From assembly GCA_011369445.1 (NCBI GenBank), contig DRQF01000107.1, positions 1 through 33,208 on the forward strand: a stretch of DNA of 33,208 nucleotides, in the 5' to 3' direction. Position numbers and translations under genes: made by a program. The notes under the pieces were generated by a model. The model was given only the letters and a program-made list of their open reading frames with translations, was not told the origin of the DNA and searched no databases. Of this stretch, positions 3,663-33,156 are shown piece by piece (within the stretch, counting starts at the first letter, position 1; each line of letters begins with the position of its first letter). Source of the stretch: Planctomycetota bacterium. Lineage in GTDB: Bacteria > Planctomycetota > GCA-002687715 > DRQF01.

Positions 3663-3686
3663 GAATGCCGTGGATGCGCAGCGTTG

Positions 3687-3708
3687 CCGCGGCACGCGCG
3701 TGCCACGG
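3687..3708. terminator. Palindromic hairpin 24 bp after the stop, likely transcription end
   Basis: A perfect 14-bp palindrome GGCACGCGCGTGCC (3691-3704) is extended by three more pairs after one mismatch (3687-3708). It lies just downstream of the secreted-protein stop at 3662. There is no T-run, so classical intrinsic termination is uncertain; it may protect the 3-prime end of the mRNA. Confidence 0.4.
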
Positions 3709-3787
3709 TGAATGATCGCCGGTGGAGCGGGGGCGGCGGGGAGGCGTGGGAGGATGGTGCGACCCCAAAACGAAAACCGGTGCAATC

Positions 3788-3980
3788 AAGAGGACGACGG
3801 GGACGTCGTCAATCCAGAAGAGGGGGCGGGGTCGGCAAGAGGACGACGGAGACGCCGTCAACCCAGAAGAGGGGGCGGGGTCGGCAAGAGGACGACGGAG
3901 ACGTCGTCAACCCAGAAGATGGAGCGGGGCCGGCAAGAGGACGACGGGGACCTCGTCAATCCAGAAGATGGGGCGGGGCG
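3788..3980. repeat. Four 49-bp tandem repeats, each with a GNRA-capped inverted repeat
   Basis: Units start at 3788, 3837, 3886 and 3935, exactly 49 bp apart, beginning AAGAGGACGACGG. The copies differ at only a few bases; the last is incomplete and runs up to the pyrD stop at 3981. In each copy GACGACG and CGTCGTC can pair over a four-base loop GGGA or GAGA, both GNRA tetraloops on the plus strand. Copies 1 and 3 have perfect 7-bp stems; copies 2 and 4 each carry one mismatch. The period is not a multiple of three, so all three frames stay open without this being evidence of coding. The array fills most of the 318-bp convergent gap 3663-3980, which holds no gene. There are no unique spacers, so it is not a CRISPR array. 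Confidence 0.85.
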
Positions 3981-5015
3981 TCACCGGGCCAGAGTGCGGA
4001 TGAGGGAGGGGCCCTCGTAGATGAAACCGGTGAAAATCTCAATGAGGTCGGCCCCCGCCTCGCGCATGCGGTGGGCTTTCTCAGGGCTGTCGATGCCGCC
4101 CACGCCGATGATGGGGACGCGGCCCTCCAGCTTCTCCGCAAACCAGCGCACTTGTTCGAGGGCGATGGGGAAAAGAGGCGCGCCCGAAAGACCGCCGCGC
4201 TCCCCCGTCACGGCCGCCGAAGCCTTCAAGGCATCCGGCCTCCGCGTCGTCGTGTTCGTGAGGACGAGTCCGTCAAGTAAACCTGACTGCGCAGCTTCCA
4301 CGATCACCGCCCGCTCCCGCTCATCAACGTCGGGTGACACCTTTAGGATCAACGGCTTGAAGCGCGCACTCTGTTCCCGCGCCAACCGATCTCTGAGAGC
4401 GCCCAGCCCGCCGAGCAGACGAGCCATGGCTTCCTCTCCCCCGAAGTCCCTAAGCTCCGGCGATGCCGGGCAGGATATGTTCACCGTGAACCCGCTGACG
4501 TGCGGAAAGAGAACCCTGAGCGTCTTCTCATAGTCCTCCGCCATCTCGTCCAAGGAACCCTCGAGATCCGCCGTCTTCACGATGTTGGCGAACACGGGAA
4601 CGCGCGGTCGAAGATCCGCCAACCGACGCGCCGTCTCCTCCGCCCCCGCGTTGGGAAGTCCCATCCGATTGATGAGCCCCCGATCCTCCGGAAGACGAAA
4701 GATCCGCGGCCGCGGGTTTCCGGGTCGGGCCTCCGAAGAGATGGCTCCCACTTCGAGAAAACCGAACCCCAGCCGCTCGAGAGCGGGAACGACGCGCGCC
4801 TCCTTGTCGAACCCGGCGGCGAGGCCCACCCGGTTGCGAAAGGTCATGCCCCAAAGCTCCACCGGATCGGCGGGAACCCGCTTCTCGAAGAGAAGCGAGA
4901 GCAGCGGTCCCAGGGGAGGCCGCCCCGCCCACCGAAGCGCCGTCAACGCCAGATGATGGGCCCTCTCCGGGTCCATGCGAAACAAAAGCGGGCGAATGAG
5001 CGAGCGGTACAGCAT
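3981..5015 (-). CDS. pyrD: Dihydroorotate dehydrogenase, class 2 (quinone-dependent), with Cys at the catalytic position
   Basis: This enzyme oxidises dihydroorotate to orotate in pyrimidine synthesis and passes electrons to membrane quinone through FMN. The 344 residues match class 2 length and layout: an N-terminal membrane-contact region (MLYRSLIRPLLFRMDPERAH), the FMN start NRVGLAAGFDKEA, the orotate loop GLINRMGLPNAG, the motif LTNTTTRRP, the GGLSGAPL loop and the phosphate site IIGVGGIDSPEKA. The catalytic-base motif reads VNISCPASPELR. Where E. coli PyrD has Ser175 in NISSPN, this protein has Cys182, as class 1 enzymes do, and the following conserved Asn is Ala. It stands alone on the minus strand, divergent from the glycosyltransferase gene across 78 bp. 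The ribosome site is weak. Identity is firm; the catalytic consequence is an open point. Confidence 0.93.
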   Translation of the reverse strand: MLYRSLIRPLLFRMDPERAHHLALTALRWAGRPPLGPLLSLLFEKRVPADPVELWGMTFRNRVGLAAGFDKEARVVPALERLGFGFLEVGAISSEARPGNPRPRIFRLPEDRGLINRMGLPNAGAEETARRLADLRPRVPVFANIVKTADLEGSLDEMAEDYEKTLRVLFPHVSGFTVNISCPASPELRDFGGEEAMARLLGGLGALRDRLAREQSARFKPLILKVSPDVDERERAVIVEAAQSGLLDGLVLTNTTTRRPDALKASAAVTGERGGLSGAPLFPIALEQVRWFAEKLEGRVPIIGVGGIDSPEKAHRMREAGADLIEIFTGFIYEGPSLIRTLAR

Positions 5016-17904: not shown

Positions 17905-19527
17905 TCAGGGCACGAAGAGAAGGGCGAGCCCGTTGGAGGCGAAGACGCCCTGGGGCGCCGTGGCGTTGGCCTCGAAGAATTGGAGGTAGAACATCTGGCC
18001 AGCGAGAAGTGGCTGGCGAAGATCCAAAGAGAACACGAGTTGGCCTTGGAGGTCATACGTCGCGGGGAAAACGAGGAACGCCCCGGGCGTCGCGTCCACC
18101 AAGAGAAGGACGCCGCCAACGGACATCATCGCAGGCGCCACGGAAAGCAAGGCTCCACCCTGGGAGCCCGCCCCCGCTCCCGTGACAAGACCAAAACCCG
18201 CAGCGGCCCCCTGGGGCCCCGCCCCCGGGACAAAGGCAAGGTCCAACACGTTCGCGGGCGCCGCGGCCACGCCATAGGGCACGGCGCCCCCCAGCGACTT
18301 CAACTCGGCCGTGCCCAGGAAGCTCACCGGGTTGACCGAGACGGCGAGAAACTCGGAAAAGCCGTCGCCGTCCACGTCATCCGCGAGATGCACGACCCCG
18401 TTGAAAGAAGCAAGCGGGGTGGCTGTACCCTGCCCCGAATAGAGGAGATAATCGACCGCCAGATCGTTGACGCCGTCGCCATTCACGTCCCTGCCCCCGT
18501 CGAGCCTCAAGCCGTTGGAAGGCACCGCGATTGAAAACAGAAGCGAACCATCGAAGCCTGAGTGAGCTTCCACGGTCGCGGTCGCCGCCGAGGGGAAACC
18601 CAGCACCGTGAAGAGGACATCACCAAAGCCGTCCTGATTCAAGTCCCCCGCTCCAGCCACGGTTCGGCCGTAAGGGACGCCGGCTGTGGGAGACGTGAAC
18701 GTGTGGAGGGTCGACCCGTCGAAACCCGAAAACACCTTGACCACCCCCGACGCCGTGGGGGGAGCCATGAAGGGGATGACGACATCGTTGCCGACGAGCA
18801 CATCTCCGAAGCCGTCCCCGTTCACGTCGCCCGCTGGGGCGATGGCCGCACCGAACCGAAGATCCGGCATGACGCCGGCATGGCTGAAGAGAAGCACACC
18901 CGAGATTCCTGAATAGACATAGACCTCACCGGAGAGAGAACCACCCGTCGCCGCCAGAATGTCGCCCACGGCGAAGTCCGGCGTTCCGTCGAGGTCCACA
19001 TCCCCCACTCCCGCAACCGCCGCGCCGAAGGCATTCATGCTCGGGCTTTGGTTTGGGGTTTGCAGAGCGTAGAGCACGCTGCCGTCGAAGCCGGAGAAAA
19101 CCGTCGCTTGACCGGTCGTCGATGGGAACGGTGCGCCCACCACGCCGCCGACGCTGCCGACGATGACGTCGTCGAAGCCGTCGCCGTTCACGTCGCCCAC
19201 GCCGTCGACGGATTTGCCGAGGCCCTGGGCGGGCATTCCCGTCCATTGATGAATAAGGCTGCCGTCCTTCCCGGAAAGGACACGGGCCACACCTTGGAAA
19301 CTCAGTGTCCCGGGCACCGAGGTTCCAGCCGCCGGTTCTCCGAAGATCACATCAGGAATCCCGTCCCCATTCACGTCACCGGCGTCGGCGGCGATGACCC
19401 CGAAGTCGATGGTGCTGCCCGTGGCAGTCCAGCGCGTCGCCACCTGCTGTCCCATGGTGGAGAGGCCGAATAAGAGTACCGTGAAAAGAACACTCCCCGC
19501 TCTTGGCAACATGAGTCCCCGCGTCAT
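17905..19527 (-). CDS. Secreted FG-GAP repeat protein, seven-bladed beta-propeller
   Basis: The 540-residue product starts with a signal peptide (RAGSVLFTVLLFGLSTMGQQ, cleavage near residue 27). Seven calcium-loop motifs follow: AGDVNGDGIPD, VGDVNGDGFDD, VGDVDLDGTPD, AGDVNGDGFGD, AGDLNQDGFGD, GRDVNGDGVND and a diverged DDVDGDGFSE, giving one seven-bladed propeller over about residues 30-400. The C-terminal part holds VLLLVDATPGAFLV, LDLRQPLLAGQMFYLQFFEA and APQGVFASNGLAL. This segment is closely matched at the end of the protein at 21323-22930, so the two are paralogs. GGGGAGA about 8 bases upstream supports the start at 19527. Ligand and role are unknown; a surface or extracellular location is inferred. 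Confidence 0.87.
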   Translation of the reverse strand: MTRGLMLPRAGSVLFTVLLFGLSTMGQQVATRWTATGSTIDFGVIAADAGDVNGDGIPDVIFGEPAAGTSVPGTLSFQGVARVLSGKDGSLIHQWTGMPAQGLGKSVDGVGDVNGDGFDDVIVGSVGGVVGAPFPSTTGQATVFSGFDGSVLYALQTPNQSPSMNAFGAAVAGVGDVDLDGTPDFAVGDILAATGGSLSGEVYVYSGISGVLLFSHAGVMPDLRFGAAIAPAGDVNGDGFGDVLVGNDVVIPFMAPPTASGVVKVFSGFDGSTLHTFTSPTAGVPYGRTVAGAGDLNQDGFGDVLFTVLGFPSAATATVEAHSGFDGSLLFSIAVPSNGLRLDGGRDVNGDGVNDLAVDYLLYSGQGTATPLASFNGVVHLADDVDGDGFSEFLAVSVNPVSFLGTAELKSLGGAVPYGVAAAPANVLDLAFVPGAGPQGAAAGFGLVTGAGAGSQGGALLSVAPAMMSVGGVLLLVDATPGAFLVFPATYDLQGQLVFSLDLRQPLLAGQMFYLQFFEANATAPQGVFASNGLALLFVP

Positions 19528-21262: not shown

Positions 21263-21322
21263 ACAGATTGCGCCTCACAAGATGAGAGATTGTGTCCCCC
21301 ATACTCGAGAAAGGAGATCTGC

Positions 21323-22930
21323 ATGATATCTTCGCATTCCCCGCTGCGTCTTATCCCCATGGTCACCGTCTTCATCGTCCTCTCGCTTCTCGCCAGTGCC
21401 CTTCCCGCCCAGAATCTGGCGCACCTCCCGAATCGCTGGACCCACGCAGGCACGACCCCTTTGCTCGGCGCGTCGATGGCGAGTGTGGGCGATCTGGATG
21501 GCGACGGAATCGGGGACTTTGCCGTAGGGGTCCCGGACGCTTGGCCCCAGAACATATTCTTGACCCTTGGGATGTCCTCCGATGGAGAAGTTCGGCTCAT
21601 CTCAGGCGCTGACGGCACCCTCATGCATTACAACCGGGGAACGATTTTCTCGAGACTTGGAATCGATGTGGTCGGAATGGGTGACCTGAACGGCGATGGA
21701 GTTCCCGATGTGGTCGCCACCGGCTATTACGCGGGAGCGACGACATTCGTGGCCATTCGGCGGGCCATCTCCGGTGCGACGGGTGCAACCCTGTACACGA
21801 TCTCGGACCTTCCGCTGTGGTCGAGCTTTCTCTACGGCAGCCTTATCGGAGACAACGTCGACAACATCGGGGACATCGATGGCGATGGAATCTCCGATTT
21901 CGTCGTTTCGGATCAGACGGCCGCTGTCCCCGTAGGATATGGTGCCGTCCATGTCTATTCGGGCGTCGATGGCGACCTCATTGCGAGCTATCCGAACACG
22001 ACACCGAACTACCGCCGGGGCGTGACCGCGGCCTCCGCGGGGGATGTGAATGGGGACGGATTCCAGGACATCATGACGACCGAAGATCCGAATCCTGGCC
22101 CGGCTCGAGTCGCCATATTGTCAGCACTCGACGGTTCGGTCCTCCACACCCTTACCGGTCAACCCGGAGAAACGTTCGGGAAGAGTGTGGCCAGTGCCGG
22201 CGACGTGAATGGGGATGGGTTCGACGATTTCCTCATCGGTTCATCCTCCCCGTCGTCGAGCCATGTCGACCTCTACTCGGGACTCACAGGGGCTCTGTTG
22301 TTCTCGAGGTCCTTGCCGCCAGGACGCGCCGACACGCTGTCGGTTGGAGGTGACGTCAACGGCGACGGTCAGCCGGACTTGGCTATCGACGGGACAATCT
22401 ACTCCGGAATCACGGGACCCGAGATCACCCAGACTCCGTACGGGAGTCTACTCCTCGTCCCCGATCAGGACGGCGACGGCTTCAGTGAACTCCTTGGTCG
22501 AACGATCTCGGCAAGCGCGAGTTCGGTGACCCTCTTTTCTCAAGGTGGGGCCATCCCCTACGGGGTGGGTGTTGGCGCCAATCAGACGCTCTCCCTCACA
22601 TTCCTTCCCGGAACGGGGCCCTCGGGGCCGGCAGCCGGACTGGACCAAACCACCGGGGCCGATCCCTTCAGCGTGGGCGTGATCGTGCTGTCGGCGGGCG
22701 AAGGCTTCACCCAGAGCATGGGGGTCACGGTTCTCGTGGACTCCACACCCGGGCAGTATCTCTACAGCATTTTCAACTACGACGCCCAGGGAACGAAAGC
22801 GTTCCCCTTGGACCTGAGACAGCCAGTCGTGGCGGGGCTCGTGGCCTATCTCCAATACTTCGAGCTCAATGGGAATGCACCCCAAGGCGTCTATGCGTCC
22901 AACGGGCTGGCCTTCCGGTTCACTCTCTGA
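21323..22930 (+). CDS. Secreted FG-GAP repeat protein, paralog of the 17905-19527 protein
   Basis: The ATG at 21323 follows an excellent ribosome site (GAAAGGAG, six bases of spacing), so the in-frame upstream start at 21290 is rejected. The 535-residue product has a signal peptide ending ALPAQ (about residue 30). Seven FG-GAP loops follow: VGDLDGDGIGD, MGDLNGDGVPD, IGDIDGDGISD, AGDVNGDGFQD, AGDVNGDGFDD, GGDVNGDGQPD and VPDQDGDGFSE. The C-terminal module (VTVLVDSTPGQYLYS, LDLRQPVVAGLVAYLQYFE, NAPQGVYASNGLAF) matches that of the minus-strand paralog almost motif for motif. The pair flanks the GH114 gene in opposite orientation, which suggests an old inverted duplication. Role unknown; presumably a surface-exposed or released binding protein. 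Confidence 0.88.
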   Translation: MISSHSPLRLIPMVTVFIVLSLLASALPAQNLAHLPNRWTHAGTTPLLGASMASVGDLDGDGIGDFAVGVPDAWPQNIFLTLGMSSDGEVRLISGADGTLMHYNRGTIFSRLGIDVVGMGDLNGDGVPDVVATGYYAGATTFVAIRRAISGATGATLYTISDLPLWSSFLYGSLIGDNVDNIGDIDGDGISDFVVSDQTAAVPVGYGAVHVYSGVDGDLIASYPNTTPNYRRGVTAASAGDVNGDGFQDIMTTEDPNPGPARVAILSALDGSVLHTLTGQPGETFGKSVASAGDVNGDGFDDFLIGSSSPSSSHVDLYSGLTGALLFSRSLPPGRADTLSVGGDVNGDGQPDLAIDGTIYSGITGPEITQTPYGSLLLVPDQDGDGFSELLGRTISASASSVTLFSQGGAIPYGVGVGANQTLSLTFLPGTGPSGPAAGLDQTTGADPFSVGVIVLSAGEGFTQSMGVTVLVDSTPGQYLYSIFNYDAQGTKAFPLDLRQPVVAGLVAYLQYFELNGNAPQGVYASNGLAFRFTL

Positions 22931-27949: not shown

Positions 27950-28612
27950 TCAGGGCTCGTCGAAGAAGTCGAGTTTGTCGACGGGCATCACGATGGACGT
28001 GACGATGTTCTTGGCATGAGCGGTGATGCGCTTCAGATGACGCCAAGCAAGCGCGGCGCTGACAGCCTCCGCGCCGCCCTGGGACGGATCGCGTACCAAC
28101 TCGGCGACGTGCTTGTCACAGGTGTCTTCGATGGCGTCCGTCTCGTGCAGGATCTGGGTGGCGCCTTCCTCGTCTTGCGATGTGTAGACGGTGACCAGAT
28201 GTCCGAGAAGTCGCGAGACATCGTCCTTGACCTTCATCAGCTCCTTCCCCATGGAACCCGTCGGGTCGAGAGGCCGAGTGAGGGCCAGATCGAAAATGTT
28301 CTTGCAGTAGTCTCCGATCCGCTCCGCATCCTTCGAAATGCTCATGAGGACCAGACAAGTCGGAAAGTCCTGAGCGCCTCGGACCGAGGCGTGAACGAGG
28401 ATCTCCCTACGAATCTTCTGCTCCGCGAGATTGATCTTTCGGTCGGTCTCGAAGAGGTCATTGCGCACTGACTCGACGGCCATCCCGGTCAACAAGGCGT
28501 TAGCGGCCAGATCGAACATATGCCGCCCATCGACGATCATCTTGGTGAAGTGTTCGAAGGTGGGCTTGAGCGTGTTGCCGTCCGAGACGAGTTTTTTCAG
28601 CCATTCGTACAT
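27950..28612 (-). CDS. PhoU-domain protein
   Basis: The 220-residue all-helical protein carries PhoU-type repeats. The best-matching part is residues about 35-110, with LFETDRKINLAEQKIRREIL and LVLMSISKDAERIGDYCKNIFDLAL, containing the E-R-I-G-D-x-x-x-N-I signature thought to bind metal ions. The second helical set ends WRHLKRITAHAKNIVTSIVMPV. PhoU proteins hold phosphate uptake or signalling in check. The gene starts seven bases after the Na/phosphate cotransporter gene on the same strand, so they form an operon. It most likely regulates that transporter and not a Pst ABC system, none of which is present here. Confidence 0.9.
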   Translation of the reverse strand: MYEWLKKLVSDGNTLKPTFEHFTKMIVDGRHMFDLAANALLTGMAVESVRNDLFETDRKINLAEQKIRREILVHASVRGAQDFPTCLVLMSISKDAERIGDYCKNIFDLALTRPLDPTGSMGKELMKVKDDVSRLLGHLVTVYTSQDEEGATQILHETDAIEDTCDKHVAELVRDPSQGGAEAVSAALAWRHLKRITAHAKNIVTSIVMPVDKLDFFDEP

Positions 28613-28619
28613 CGTGCGT

Positions 28620-29753
28620 CTACCTGAAGATCAGATTGCCAACCAGGGGTATGATAACGAAGAATCCCACGACGTAGAAAACGGCGTAGAATCGATTGCG
28701 GACCGCCAGCTCTGCGAGCTTCTCGGCAAGACGAATGGGAATTCGCCGGACTGCGGGAACGGGGTAAATGAGCGCCGTCGACCCGAGGTTGAAGAGCAGG
28801 TGCACGAGGGCGATGGTCAGTCCGTTGACCCCCGTCGTGAGGGCCGCCAGCAGAGCCGTCACGGTCGTACCGATGTTGGCGCCCAGGGTCACCGGAAATC
28901 CGTTTTCGAGCTTGAGAATCCCCGCCGCGAAGAGAGGAATCATGAGTGAAGTCGTGATGCTCGACGACTGCACGGAGACGGTCAGAGCGATCCCGATCAC
29001 GATCCCCAAAAGACCGCTCTTCTCGAGAACGCGATTCAATGACCGTTCCATCCTCGCCATCATGAGCAGCTTCATGATCTTCGTGATGAGGATCAGGGCG
29101 AAGACGAGGGCCACCAAGGCCAGAACGAGCATGACGACGCCGCCCCAGGTGCTTCCCAGATCGAGGGTGTCCGTGCAGAAATGCTTGAGCATCTTGGCGG
29201 CGGGCTTCGTGATCGCCTTGACGGGGCTCGTGAATTTTCCGCCACTCCCGTCGGTGTAGATGTTGCCAGCGAGATACGTCGCCGACTTCCGCAGCACGCC
29301 GGTCGCCATCTCCAGCGGCATGAAAACCGCGACGGCCATGATGTTGAAGAAGTCGTGCATCGTGGAGCCCGCGAAGGCGCGCCTGAACTCGGCGTCCTGC
29401 CGCACGTGGCCAAGTGACACGAGGGTGTTGGTGATCGTCGTCCCGATGTTGCACCCCATGATGGCGAACACGGCCACTTCGAGGGGAAGCTGCCCAGCGC
29501 CCACCGCGGACACCACGAGCGATGTGGTCATGGAGCTGGACTGGACGAGAACCGTCGCCAGGATACCCACGCTCAGCCCGGCGAACGGTGTCACGAGGCC
29601 GGAGAAAAGACCTTCAGCGTGGGCGCTGCCCATGAGCTTGAAGGCCGTTCCCATGACCTGGATGGAAAGAAGGAAGACGTAGAGAAGGCCGAGGAGCAAC
29701 CCGACACGAATCATCGTTGCACGCCGACCGGACGGCCTTGGCACCGTACTCAC
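28620..29753 (-). CDS. Na/phosphate cotransporter (NptA/PF02690 family)
   Basis: This 377-residue inner-membrane carrier takes up phosphate with sodium. The protein has the two inverted repeats of the family, each with its QSSS motif: LVQSSSMTTSL (QSSS at 71-74) and VQSSSITTSLM (262-265). Each is followed by an NIGTT loop (MGCNIGTTITNT at about 99-110 and GANIGTTVTALL at about 291-302). Between the repeats a region of about 55 residues (GVLRKSATYLAGNIYTDG...) probably lies outside the membrane. About eight or nine membrane segments are visible. The length fits the shorter bacterial form that lacks a fused PhoU domain; the PhoU function is supplied by the next gene. It is divergent from the CBS gene across 173 bp. 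Confidence 0.92.
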   Translation of the reverse strand: MSTVPRPSGRRATMIRVGLLLGLLYVFLLSIQVMGTAFKLMGSAHAEGLFSGLVTPFAGLSVGILATVLVQSSSMTTSLVVSAVGAGQLPLEVAVFAIMGCNIGTTITNTLVSLGHVRQDAEFRRAFAGSTMHDFFNIMAVAVFMPLEMATGVLRKSATYLAGNIYTDGSGGKFTSPVKAITKPAAKMLKHFCTDTLDLGSTWGGVVMLVLALVALVFALILITKIMKLLMMARMERSLNRVLEKSGLLGIVIGIALTVSVQSSSITTSLMIPLFAAGILKLENGFPVTLGANIGTTVTALLAALTTGVNGLTIALVHLLFNLGSTALIYPVPAVRRIPIRLAEKLAELAVRNRFYAVFYVVGFFVIIPLVGNLIFR

Positions 29754-29926
29754 GTGAAGAACTCCCTGGGTGATGGCCCCCCGCGATCAGGGGTCTGACG
29801 GGTTCTTGTATGCAGAAGCCCGGCGCGCGTCCAGCCCCCCGCAAATCAGCCGCTTCTGGAGCCCCGTGGGGTCCGCGGCGAGATTTCTCCCCACGTCACT
29901 TCCAATCTGTGGCAAAATGGGTAGCT

Positions 29927-30361
29927 ATGAAGATCCGCACGATTCTTGAAAGCAAGGGGCGCAGGGTGCGCTGCATCGCCCCCGACGCCAGCGTCATGGA
30001 CGCCATCACCATGATGGCGGACAACGATATAGGCTCCCTCATGGTGACGGACGGCGACGACATCGTCGGCATCGTCTCGGAGCGGGATTGCCTGAAACAG
30101 CTCGCTCGGTCCCCCGACACAGTGAATGACCACCCCGTTTTGGCGATCACGACCCGAGACATCGTCGTCGCCGGCGATGATGACAATTTGGCCTACGTCA
30201 TGGAGGCCATGGTCAAGAAGGGATGCCGCCATGTCCCCGTCATCCACGACGGCGAATTGGCCGGGATGATCTCGATCCGTGACGTCGTCCGCGCTCAACT
30301 CGACGAGACTCACCAGGAGCTGAAGTTCCTCCGGGAGTACATCCAGGGCGGAGGCGCCTGA
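29927..30361 (+). CDS. Protein of two CBS domains
   Basis: The 144-residue protein is nearly all CBS pair. The first domain (about 3-62) has VMDAITMMADNDIGSLMVTDGDDIVGIVSERDCLK and the second (about 73-132) has LAYVMEAMVKKGCRHVPVIHDGELAGMISIRDVV, each with the typical strand-helix ending. Bateman modules bind adenine nucleotides and sense energy state, usually to control a partner protein. No effector domain is attached. The ATG at 29927 is chosen because the preceding in-frame part (from 29810) is Arg/Pro-rich and unlike the family; the ribosome site is poor. It converges with the DUF3179 gene, leaving 17 bp. Confidence 0.9.
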   Translation: MKIRTILESKGRRVRCIAPDASVMDAITMMADNDIGSLMVTDGDDIVGIVSERDCLKQLARSPDTVNDHPVLAITTRDIVVAGDDDNLAYVMEAMVKKGCRHVPVIHDGELAGMISIRDVVRAQLDETHQELKFLREYIQGGGA

Positions 30362-30378: not shown

Positions 30379-31440
30379 TTAGCGAACGACGCGACCCGAA
30401 GGGTGAGCGTCCTTCCAGAAGTCCAGGACAGCCGGCATGGCGTTGAGTCGAGCAAGCACAGCTCCCTGCGGCTTACCCACCTCTTTTCCCGTCAAGGGGT
30501 CGAACTTCCGTCCGGATGATGCATCCACGAGAAGCCCCTCCTTCATGGCGAAGTGAAGCGGCTTTCCTTCGATCCGCGCGTCGTAGACGACAGCCGAAGA
30601 GTACTTGGGAATCCAGACGAACACCGGCGCCAGGTGCTTCATGGGAGGCTGCACGGCGCCCTGGCCACGCATGGCCTCATACGAGACCGCGACGGCGTCG
30701 CCCCCGGACTCCACGGCAAGTCCCAGGGCGTCGCCATATCGATTCTTACCCTTCACCAGGGTCTTGGTGGTGAAATGCCACCCCTTCGACCGGACGGGCG
30801 GCAGATCCAGGACGTCGGTATTCGGGTGGAGCGCTTTCCACATCGAGAAGGACACGAACAGCGAAGGCATCACGTCGAGCGCGAGGCCCTTTTTCTTGGC
30901 CGGCCCATAGAGGGCCTTTCCTGTCATCTGCGACCAAAGAGAGTCGGTCTCGGGATCCCACATCACGAGGTTGAAGTCGAGAAGCCTTCCCGAGACTCCC
31001 AATCGGATGGCCTTCCCCTTGACGCTGCGAGCGTACACGACGCTCGTGAAGGTCAGAGGTCACCAGCTCGCCGCAAACAGAGACGCGCCGGCCTTGGCAT
31101 TGACGATTTCGCGATGGGGGCCACCCAACATCTTTACGGGGAACGCCACGGCCTTGCCGTCGACGACGCACCCGATGACGAGCTCGTCATCGCCCACGGG
31201 ATTGTGGAGTCGCGAAGGAACCGAATAGGGGACCCTCTCGAGGGGCATGAGACGCACATCGACGACTTCATCCCCGGGTGCTTCCTTCCCCCATGGCGCC
31301 GGACGCTTGCGCTGATCCCAGTCATCAACCCCCTGCATGTCAGGCTTCTGTTCTTGGGCGCGCAGGGCACCCAGACAGAGGATCGCGGCAAGAAGTCGCG
31401 GAAGGGCCCGACCTGCAGCGGCGCGAACGTGAGAATGCAT
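30379..31440 (-). CDS. DUF3179 protein, candidate selenoprotein with in-frame TGA at residue 127
   Basis: The ATG at 31440 has GAGGAG nine bases upstream and begins a signal peptide ending ALRAQ. The frame reads LVIGCVVDGKAVAFPVKML and REIVNAKAGASLFAASW, meets TGA at 31062-31060, then continues in the same frame with PLTFTSVVYARSVKGK, GVSGRLLDFNLVMWDPETDS and LWSQMTGKALYGP. This is one DUF3179 domain. The family has Cys-Pro-Leu where this gene has TGA-Pro-Leu, so the TGA sits on a conserved Cys. A SECIS-like stem-loop follows at the right distance. With Sec the protein would be 353 residues. The last part (KYSSAVVYDARIEGKPLHF to FWKDAHPSGRVV) looks like a diverged second copy of the motif region, without the Cys. 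DUF3179 has no known biochemical role. The alternatives are a nonsense mutation or a sequencing error; split genes are unlikely because the cut falls inside the domain core. Confidence 0.75.
31028..31062 (-). promoter_or_regulatory. Candidate bacterial SECIS element with its UGA codon
   Basis: On the minus strand the UGA (31062-31060) is followed by 13 nt and then CGAGCGT (31046-31040), the loop CGTGT (31039-31035) and ACGCTCG (31034-31028), a perfect 7-bp stem with a 5-nt loop. The loop starts 21 nt after the UGA and its second base is G. The published pattern for bacterial SECIS elements (apical loop about 16-37 nt from the UGA, short loop with a G in its first two bases) is met. The base after UGA is C, a poor termination context. 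This is inferred from shape only. Confidence 0.5.
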
Positions 31441-31623: not shown

Positions 31624-33156
31624 ATGTCCAGACACGTTGCAGTCTTCTGCTTGCTCGCCCTGTGCGCGAGCGTTTCTGCCCAAACGATCAACTACGCTCC
31701 CCCCATCCTACTCTCCGCGGCCGGCAATACGGTCGATGTGTCGACGGCGGATCTGAATAACGACGGTTTGCTCGACATCGTCTCGTCCGACCTTGCCGGC
31801 AACGTCGTCAGCGTCTTCCTCGCCACATCCGCAACGTCCTTCGCCCCGGCCGTGAACTACACTTCGAATTCGCCCGTCGCTCTCGATCTCGGCGACGCCG
31901 ACGGGGACGGCGATATCGACGTTCTCGTCGCGGATTTCGACGGCAACGCCGTCCATCTTCTGAACAACGATGGCAGCGGCGTGCTCTCCGTCGCGGCGAC
32001 CGTCGCGGTGGGAATCGGCCCTGGCAAGGTTCGCCTCGCCGACCTGGACGGCGACGATGACCTCGATGCACTGACGACGAACGGAACGAGCGGGACGATC
32101 AGCGTGCTCACCAACGACGGCACCGGCGTCTTGACCGTGGCGTTCAGTCTGACAGCCGGCATCTTTCCCGCGGACGTCGACGCCCTCGATGCGAACGCGG
32201 ACGGCCTCGTCGACATCGTCTGCACGCTCTCCGGCTCGGACAGCATCCTCGTCTTCAACGCCCTCTCCCCGCTCAACTTCGCGGCGCCGACATCCTATTC
32301 CGTGGGGACGTTTCCAAGAGGCGTCGATCACGGCGACTTCGACTCGGACGGCGATCTCGATCTGTGCGTAGCGAACCAATTCTCCAATACGGTCAGCGTC
32401 CTCTACAACGACGGGACGGGGAATTACCCCATGTCGATCTCGGTTGCCGTGGGCAACGGGCCGATCGACCTCGTCGTCGCCGACCTCGAACACCGTTTCG
32501 GCAACGACATTGCCGTCCTCCACTACAACGCCGGAACGATCGAGCTGCACCGCAACGACGGTTTCGGTGGGTTCCTCCCCGCCGGCACCCTGGTCGCCGG
32601 CGTTTTCCCGACGGGACTCGCCGCAACCGACTTCGACGGGGACGACAACATCGATTTCGTCGTGGCGAACAACGTTTCGCCCGACCTCTCACTTTTTGTC
32701 CACCAGGGGTCCGATGTCCTCTATCCGGGCACGGGCGACGACCTCATCCTCGGGTTCGGCGTCAACGGCGCGCCCATGACCGGTACGGGCACCTATCTCA
32801 TCGACGCCCACGCGGGAGACTCCCTCACCCTCTCGCTGTCGTCCCCAGGCGGGACGTATGACCTGCTTCCCTTGATCATTGCAGGTCAGCTCCACTACCG
32901 GGGTTTCCCGCCTCCCAACGTGATGCCGGGCATTTGGCTGAACCAATTCACGTTCGGCGCCCAGTTCCTCGTGAACGGATTGGCCCCGGTCAACGGATTC
33001 CTCCAGATCCTGACGCCGGGCGGTTCCGTCTACTCTTTCGCGATCCCGGCTGGATTCGAGGGCCTCGACTTCATGGTTCAGGGGATCATGCTCAGCAGCT
33101 TGAGCAGCAACGGCATCGCCGCGTTCACGGAAGGGCACGTTCTCCGCTTCCTTTGA
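31624..33156 (+). CDS. Secreted VCBS/FG-GAP repeat protein, seven repeats
   Basis: The 510-residue protein has a clear signal peptide (MSRHVAVFCLLALCASVSAQ, cleavage after Ser-Ala or Ala-Gln). Seven repeats follow at about 45-50 residue spacing: TADLNNDGLLD, LGDADGDGDID, LADLDGDDDLD, ALDANADGLVD, HGDFDSDGDLD, a degenerate VADLEHRFGND and ATDFDGDDNID. Each is followed by a V-x-V-L/F strand and an N-D-G-x-G turn (LLNNDGSGVL, VLTNDGTGVL, LYNDGTGNYP, HRNDGFGGFL), the VCBS subtype and not the classical FG-GAP form of the other three proteins. Residues about 355-510 form a C-terminal beta module ending EGHVLRFL. GAGG lies about nine bases before the ATG. It presumably forms a seven-bladed extracellular propeller; partner unknown. 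Confidence 0.87.
   Translation: MSRHVAVFCLLALCASVSAQTINYAPPILLSAAGNTVDVSTADLNNDGLLDIVSSDLAGNVVSVFLATSATSFAPAVNYTSNSPVALDLGDADGDGDIDVLVADFDGNAVHLLNNDGSGVLSVAATVAVGIGPGKVRLADLDGDDDLDALTTNGTSGTISVLTNDGTGVLTVAFSLTAGIFPADVDALDANADGLVDIVCTLSGSDSILVFNALSPLNFAAPTSYSVGTFPRGVDHGDFDSDGDLDLCVANQFSNTVSVLYNDGTGNYPMSISVAVGNGPIDLVVADLEHRFGNDIAVLHYNAGTIELHRNDGFGGFLPAGTLVAGVFPTGLAATDFDGDDNIDFVVANNVSPDLSLFVHQGSDVLYPGTGDDLILGFGVNGAPMTGTGTYLIDAHAGDSLTLSLSSPGGTYDLLPLIIAGQLHYRGFPPPNVMPGIWLNQFTFGAQFLVNGLAPVNGFLQILTPGGSVYSFAIPAGFEGLDFMVQGIMLSSLSSNGIAAFTEGHVLRFL

Follow-up and report, generated by a model that had tools for sequence, protein, structure and literature searches.

How is a gene to be read when a single TGA codon breaks a frame that is otherwise continuous? 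Such a frame lies on the minus strand of the DNA analysed here (the window, 33,208 nucleotides from a Planctomycetota MAG that is 89.9% complete), and the preliminary description, made from the letters alone, had taken it for the gene of a DUF3179 protein in which selenocysteine (Sec) stands at a conserved Cys. The two features on which the question turns are as follows:

30379..31440, minus strand: predicted selenoprotein coding sequence, DUF3179, from ATG to TAA, 353 amino acids including Sec127
31060..31062, minus strand: in-frame UGA predicted to be read as selenocysteine (Sec127), from an aligned column of 177 homologs

The TGA at 31062-31060 is the sole break in the frame from 31440 to 30379, and besides it neither a frameshift nor a further stop was found there, as had been described. 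The homology to DUF3179 noticed on both sides of the codon was also confirmed: the Pfam profile (PF11376) matches straight across it, over residues 81-342, with 134.9 bits (gathering cut-off 27), and the open reading frame downstream of the TGA reaches 86.7 bits on its own. The codon had been placed at the Cys of the CPL motif of the family, and the alignment agrees, the Sec127 column of the 177 homologs containing U in 129, Cys in 32 and another residue in 16. The motif of the window protein is UPLT, in which Thr replaces the second Cys of the family motif CPLC, and therefore the site is not of the two-Cys type; the whole protein has only Cys22, Cys91 and Sec127.

Is the source organism equipped to insert Sec? 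The preliminary description had proposed a search for selA, selB, selC (tRNA-Sec) and selD, and all four were found in the source genome: selA with 521 bits, selB with 364 bits, selD with 371 bits and tRNA-Sec with 67.1 bits (gathering score 47), the last also being called by ARAGORN as tRNA-SeC with the anticodon tca. Contig C111 groups selA, selD and tRNA-Sec. No TGA was found inside selA or selB of this genome, and selD has one. The latter (L019, genome G000, contig C111) lies in frame near the start of the gene, in the context CASGGGU. Known Sec-containing SelD likewise has Sec near the start, and SelD of the source genome is probably a selenoprotein itself.

In the proposed mechanism, SelB carrying Sec-tRNA(Sec) would bind a hairpin located 14-32 nt past the UGA at 31062-31060, and Sec would be inserted at residue 127, a step supported by sequence and comparison. 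The hairpin is the following:

31028..31046, minus strand: bSECIS-type hairpin, stem CGAGCGU/ACGCUCG, loop CGUGU (31039-31035), from energy, shuffles and covariation

A bSECIS has a G among the first two bases of the loop and its loop 16-37 nt after the UGA, and both are found here. Every detail of the stem-loop described earlier was reproduced: a stem of 7 bp, with 5 bases in its loop, begins about 14 nt past the UGA, the loop starts 21 nt after it with G as its second base, and the base right after the UGA is C. The hairpin has an energy of -10.3 kcal/mol, and codon shuffles gave an equally good one in 0 of 60 cases. Because no shuffle matches it and because it recurs in relatives with compensatory changes, the hairpin is more than a chance fold.

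The comparison with relatives bears this out. For the strongest bSECIS-type hairpin of each gene, the median energy is -10.9 kcal/mol among 62 TGA genes and only -5.4 among 48 homologs without the TGA (p 7e-7), and z-scores against codon shuffles also differ between these two groups (p 1e-9). The loops in TGA genes are mostly CGUGU, GUC or AGUUUC. Among 60 distinct sequences selected by Pfam, the seven stem pairs are 79.5% paired, and two-sided compensatory changes, counted without regard to shared descent, number 78, where shuffles give 29.8 +/- 6.0 and never more than 43; when the stem partner is slid, at most 40 are seen, compared with the 78 in the true register. In a second set, from named genomes, pairing is 92% and two-sided changes number 81 versus 23.4, figures in which some stem bases are forced by the W-U-P-L search pattern, and therefore the unforced Pfam-selected set is the main test of covariation. 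Shared descent is a weak objection to these counts because the sequences are spread over phyla.

Do relatives carry the codon as well? DUF3179 occurs in 114 of 292 genomes of the phylum, 45 of the 114 having copies with one in-frame TGA, and about 60 copies fetched from Planctomycetota have TGA at the Sec127 column. Named genomes scanned with a DNA pattern for W-U-P-L yielded matches on at least 117 contigs across about 15 phyla, including Poribacteria, Planctomycetota, Acidobacteriota, Zixibacteria, Chloroflexota, deltaproteobacterial groups, Eisenbacteria, Nitrospinota and others, and in all of the 80 matches listed the frame is open both before and after the TGA. The question whether relatives share the codon is thus answered for well over 100 genomes, at the same column. 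Decay, which had been expected to leave TGA-bearing relatives with extra stops and without the stem-loop, is not the picture obtained, as these 80 are open on both sides and the hairpin covaries. The occurrence of selA follows that of the codon: 43 of the 45 genomes with TGA copies have it, compared with 37 of the 69 whose copies all lack the TGA (Fisher p 6e-7). In two TGA-bearing genomes, G085 and G059, both drafts, selA was not detected; G059 has two TGA-bearing DUF3179 genes (L092 and L094), and an incomplete draft or another explanation may account for it.

The closest relatives, with 40-44% identity, retain UPLTFTG, and the nearest one found in a named genome is 44% identical to the window protein; the TGA is kept in the nearest relatives L203 and L205/L108. 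In a tree of 177 sequences, made by a fast method with the Sec column left out and having many weak branches, the window protein groups with L203 and L108 with a support of 100, all of them UPLTFTG, and on the same tree Sec/Cys exchange needs about 12 changes. A single-protein scan of the genome contigs (query P0001) found no relative. With the Sec machinery, the same-column TGA in relatives, the covariation of the SECIS and the co-occurrence with selA, the selenoprotein gene first proposed from the letters is strongly supported, and we consider it very probable that this is a functional selenoprotein gene whose product is an exported DUF3179 protein belonging to the UPLT subgroup.

The residues around the codon vary within the family. 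The +3 residue in TGA forms is mostly Cys, and Ala, Thr, Val, Glu, Leu and Ser also occur, so that Sec in this family is often found without a partner Cys at +3. Cys twins with CPLA are present in genomes without detected selA (L052, L054, L055 and L056). Because the Sec column is occupied by His, Ser, Asn, Asp or Ala in some homologs, the residue is not always needed in the DUF3179 family. Asn, His or Ala takes the place of Sec/Cys in L026, L030, L034, L035, L121, L123 and L126, several of whose genomes have selA, and these copies possibly form a subgroup with different chemistry.

What kind of protein would the gene produce? Three regions were delimited:

31357..31440, minus strand: probable signal peptide, residues 1-28, LPRLLAAILCLGALRA then QEQ, from a hydrophobic stretch and a helix at 12-28 in the model
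30796..31197, minus strand: first of the two homologous halves of the DUF3179 domain, residues 82-215, with Sec127, E111, N114, D162 and W169, from hhalign and a conservation table
30382..30747, minus strand: second half of the domain, residues 232-353, without Cys or Sec, from hhalign

The window protein is apparently exported. Aligned by hhalign, half 1 matches half 2 with a probability of 99.9 (E 9e-32), WUPL of half 1 being set opposite WIPK of half 2. Profile alignment and structure prediction show the domain to be an internal duplication in which Sec/Cys is kept in the first half only. In the AlphaFold2 model (mean pLDDT 91.6), the protein consists of one beta-rich domain present twice in tandem, with the reactive residue between two strands, in the first copy only. 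The conserved positions near Sec are H110, E111, N114, D115, W126, P128, L129, D162 and W169; the window clade has Arg instead of H110, the window protein has Ala at D115, and the nearest relatives lack its C91.

A search of the PDB by sequence gave no useful match and no solved relative, and NCBIfam gave no match to the window protein. The top Foldseek matches of the model in the PDB are Rieske-type [2Fe-2S] ferredoxins (probability 1.00, target TM about 0.5-0.59), with a best E of only 0.018, and against a Rieske profile half 2 gives a weak match of 54% and half 1 one of 2%. Unlike these ferredoxins, the window protein lacks the cluster ligands CxH...CxxH. The predicted fold thus weakly resembles that of Rieske ferredoxins, a likeness to be taken as a lead only. 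A viral fold library gave one significant match, to an uncharacterized protein, which is uninformative.

What might Sec127 do? The preliminary description had suggested a redox- or metal-active residue, which is a reasonable proposal. There is about an even chance that, outside the cytoplasm, its selenol catalyses a thiol/selenol redox reaction, as against metal binding or another use. Because the window protein has no Cys at +3, another source would have to supply the resolving thiol. The main competitor, which also takes the gene for a selenoprotein, has Sec127 bind a metal or metalloid instead of catalysing thiol exchange. It draws on the His, Asn, Asp or Ser that replaces Sec in some relatives, on the HExxND conserved nearby and on a few named-genome loci that lie near NAD(P)-disulfide reductase, TVP38-type or arsenite-methyltransferase-like genes (identified by eye); such neighbours, however, occur at fewer than 10 of 80 loci, and the Arg of the window clade falls on the conserved His (residue 110), so that we hold metal binding to be possible and the less likely of the two. 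No widely conserved gene neighbour of DUF3179 was found, the neighbourhoods being lineage-specific (Poribacteria) or sparse, and the reductase-like and arsenite-methyltransferase-like neighbours are too sparse to decide between redox and metal. We tentatively suggest that DUF3179 is related to the Rieske fold, having been duplicated and lacking the cluster, and that its Sec (or Cys), often alone, would serve as the reactive centre of an enzyme that is exported and is used in about 15 phyla, Sec and Cys having been exchanged repeatedly.

It is very unlikely that the locus is instead a pseudogene or the product of a sequencing error, in which TGC or TGT has turned into TGA in a gene that no longer works, or that a 219-residue downstream frame starting at GTG 31038 is the real gene. 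One substitution would be sufficient, the window gene is known from a single MAG, and the score of the downstream frame alone was given above; against this stand the same-column TGA of so many genomes, a hairpin preserved by compensatory changes, a frame without any other stop or frameshift, and the loss of the front of the first domain half that a start at GTG 31038 would bring. Reassignment of TGA to one of the standard amino acids, for example Trp, for which only the open frame speaks, has a negligible chance, as the neighbouring CBS-domain gene (29810-30361) ends normally on TGA (GGC GCC TGA), the homologous residue is Cys and not Trp, the Sec machinery of the source genome is complete, and its selA and selB are free of internal TGA.

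The selenoprotein reading of the family is not new, as had been supposed: the claim of novelty fails because DUF3179 (pfam11376) is tabulated in two reviews as a predicted selenoprotein family with the motif UxxC/T (PMC9312934, 2022; PMC13188914, 2026), both papers crediting the prediction to Zhang & Gladyshev 2007. The window protein shares the Pfam domain and has Sec at the first Cys of CPLC, in the listed UxxT form, whereas UxxA, UxxV, UxxE and UxxL, which occur in relatives of the window gene, are outside the published motif. The window gene is a well-supported additional member of this predicted family and not a new type. Covariation, co-occurrence with selA and wide taxonomic spread are added here as comparative evidence for the family, in which genes are prone to being annotated as truncated, and the analysis provides a fold lead and cultured organisms for testing the function of an uncharacterised selenoprotein, homologs being present in Geothermobacter hydrogeniphilus HR-1 (L149) and Sulfidibacter corallicola M133 (L207).

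Several other features of the window were observed. FG-GAP repeat proteins are encoded at 17905-19527 and 31624-33156 (Pfam) and at 271-2166 and 21290-22930 (by eye). A repetitive stretch at 3684-4280 has EDDGDVVNPEEGAG-like repeats in overlapping open reading frames, and beside it lies a dihydroorotate dehydrogenase-looking gene (3981-5015, minus strand). At 27950-29753, on the minus strand, a gene for a PhoU-domain protein adjoins one for a Na+/Pi-cotransporter (Pfam), a probable phosphate uptake pair.
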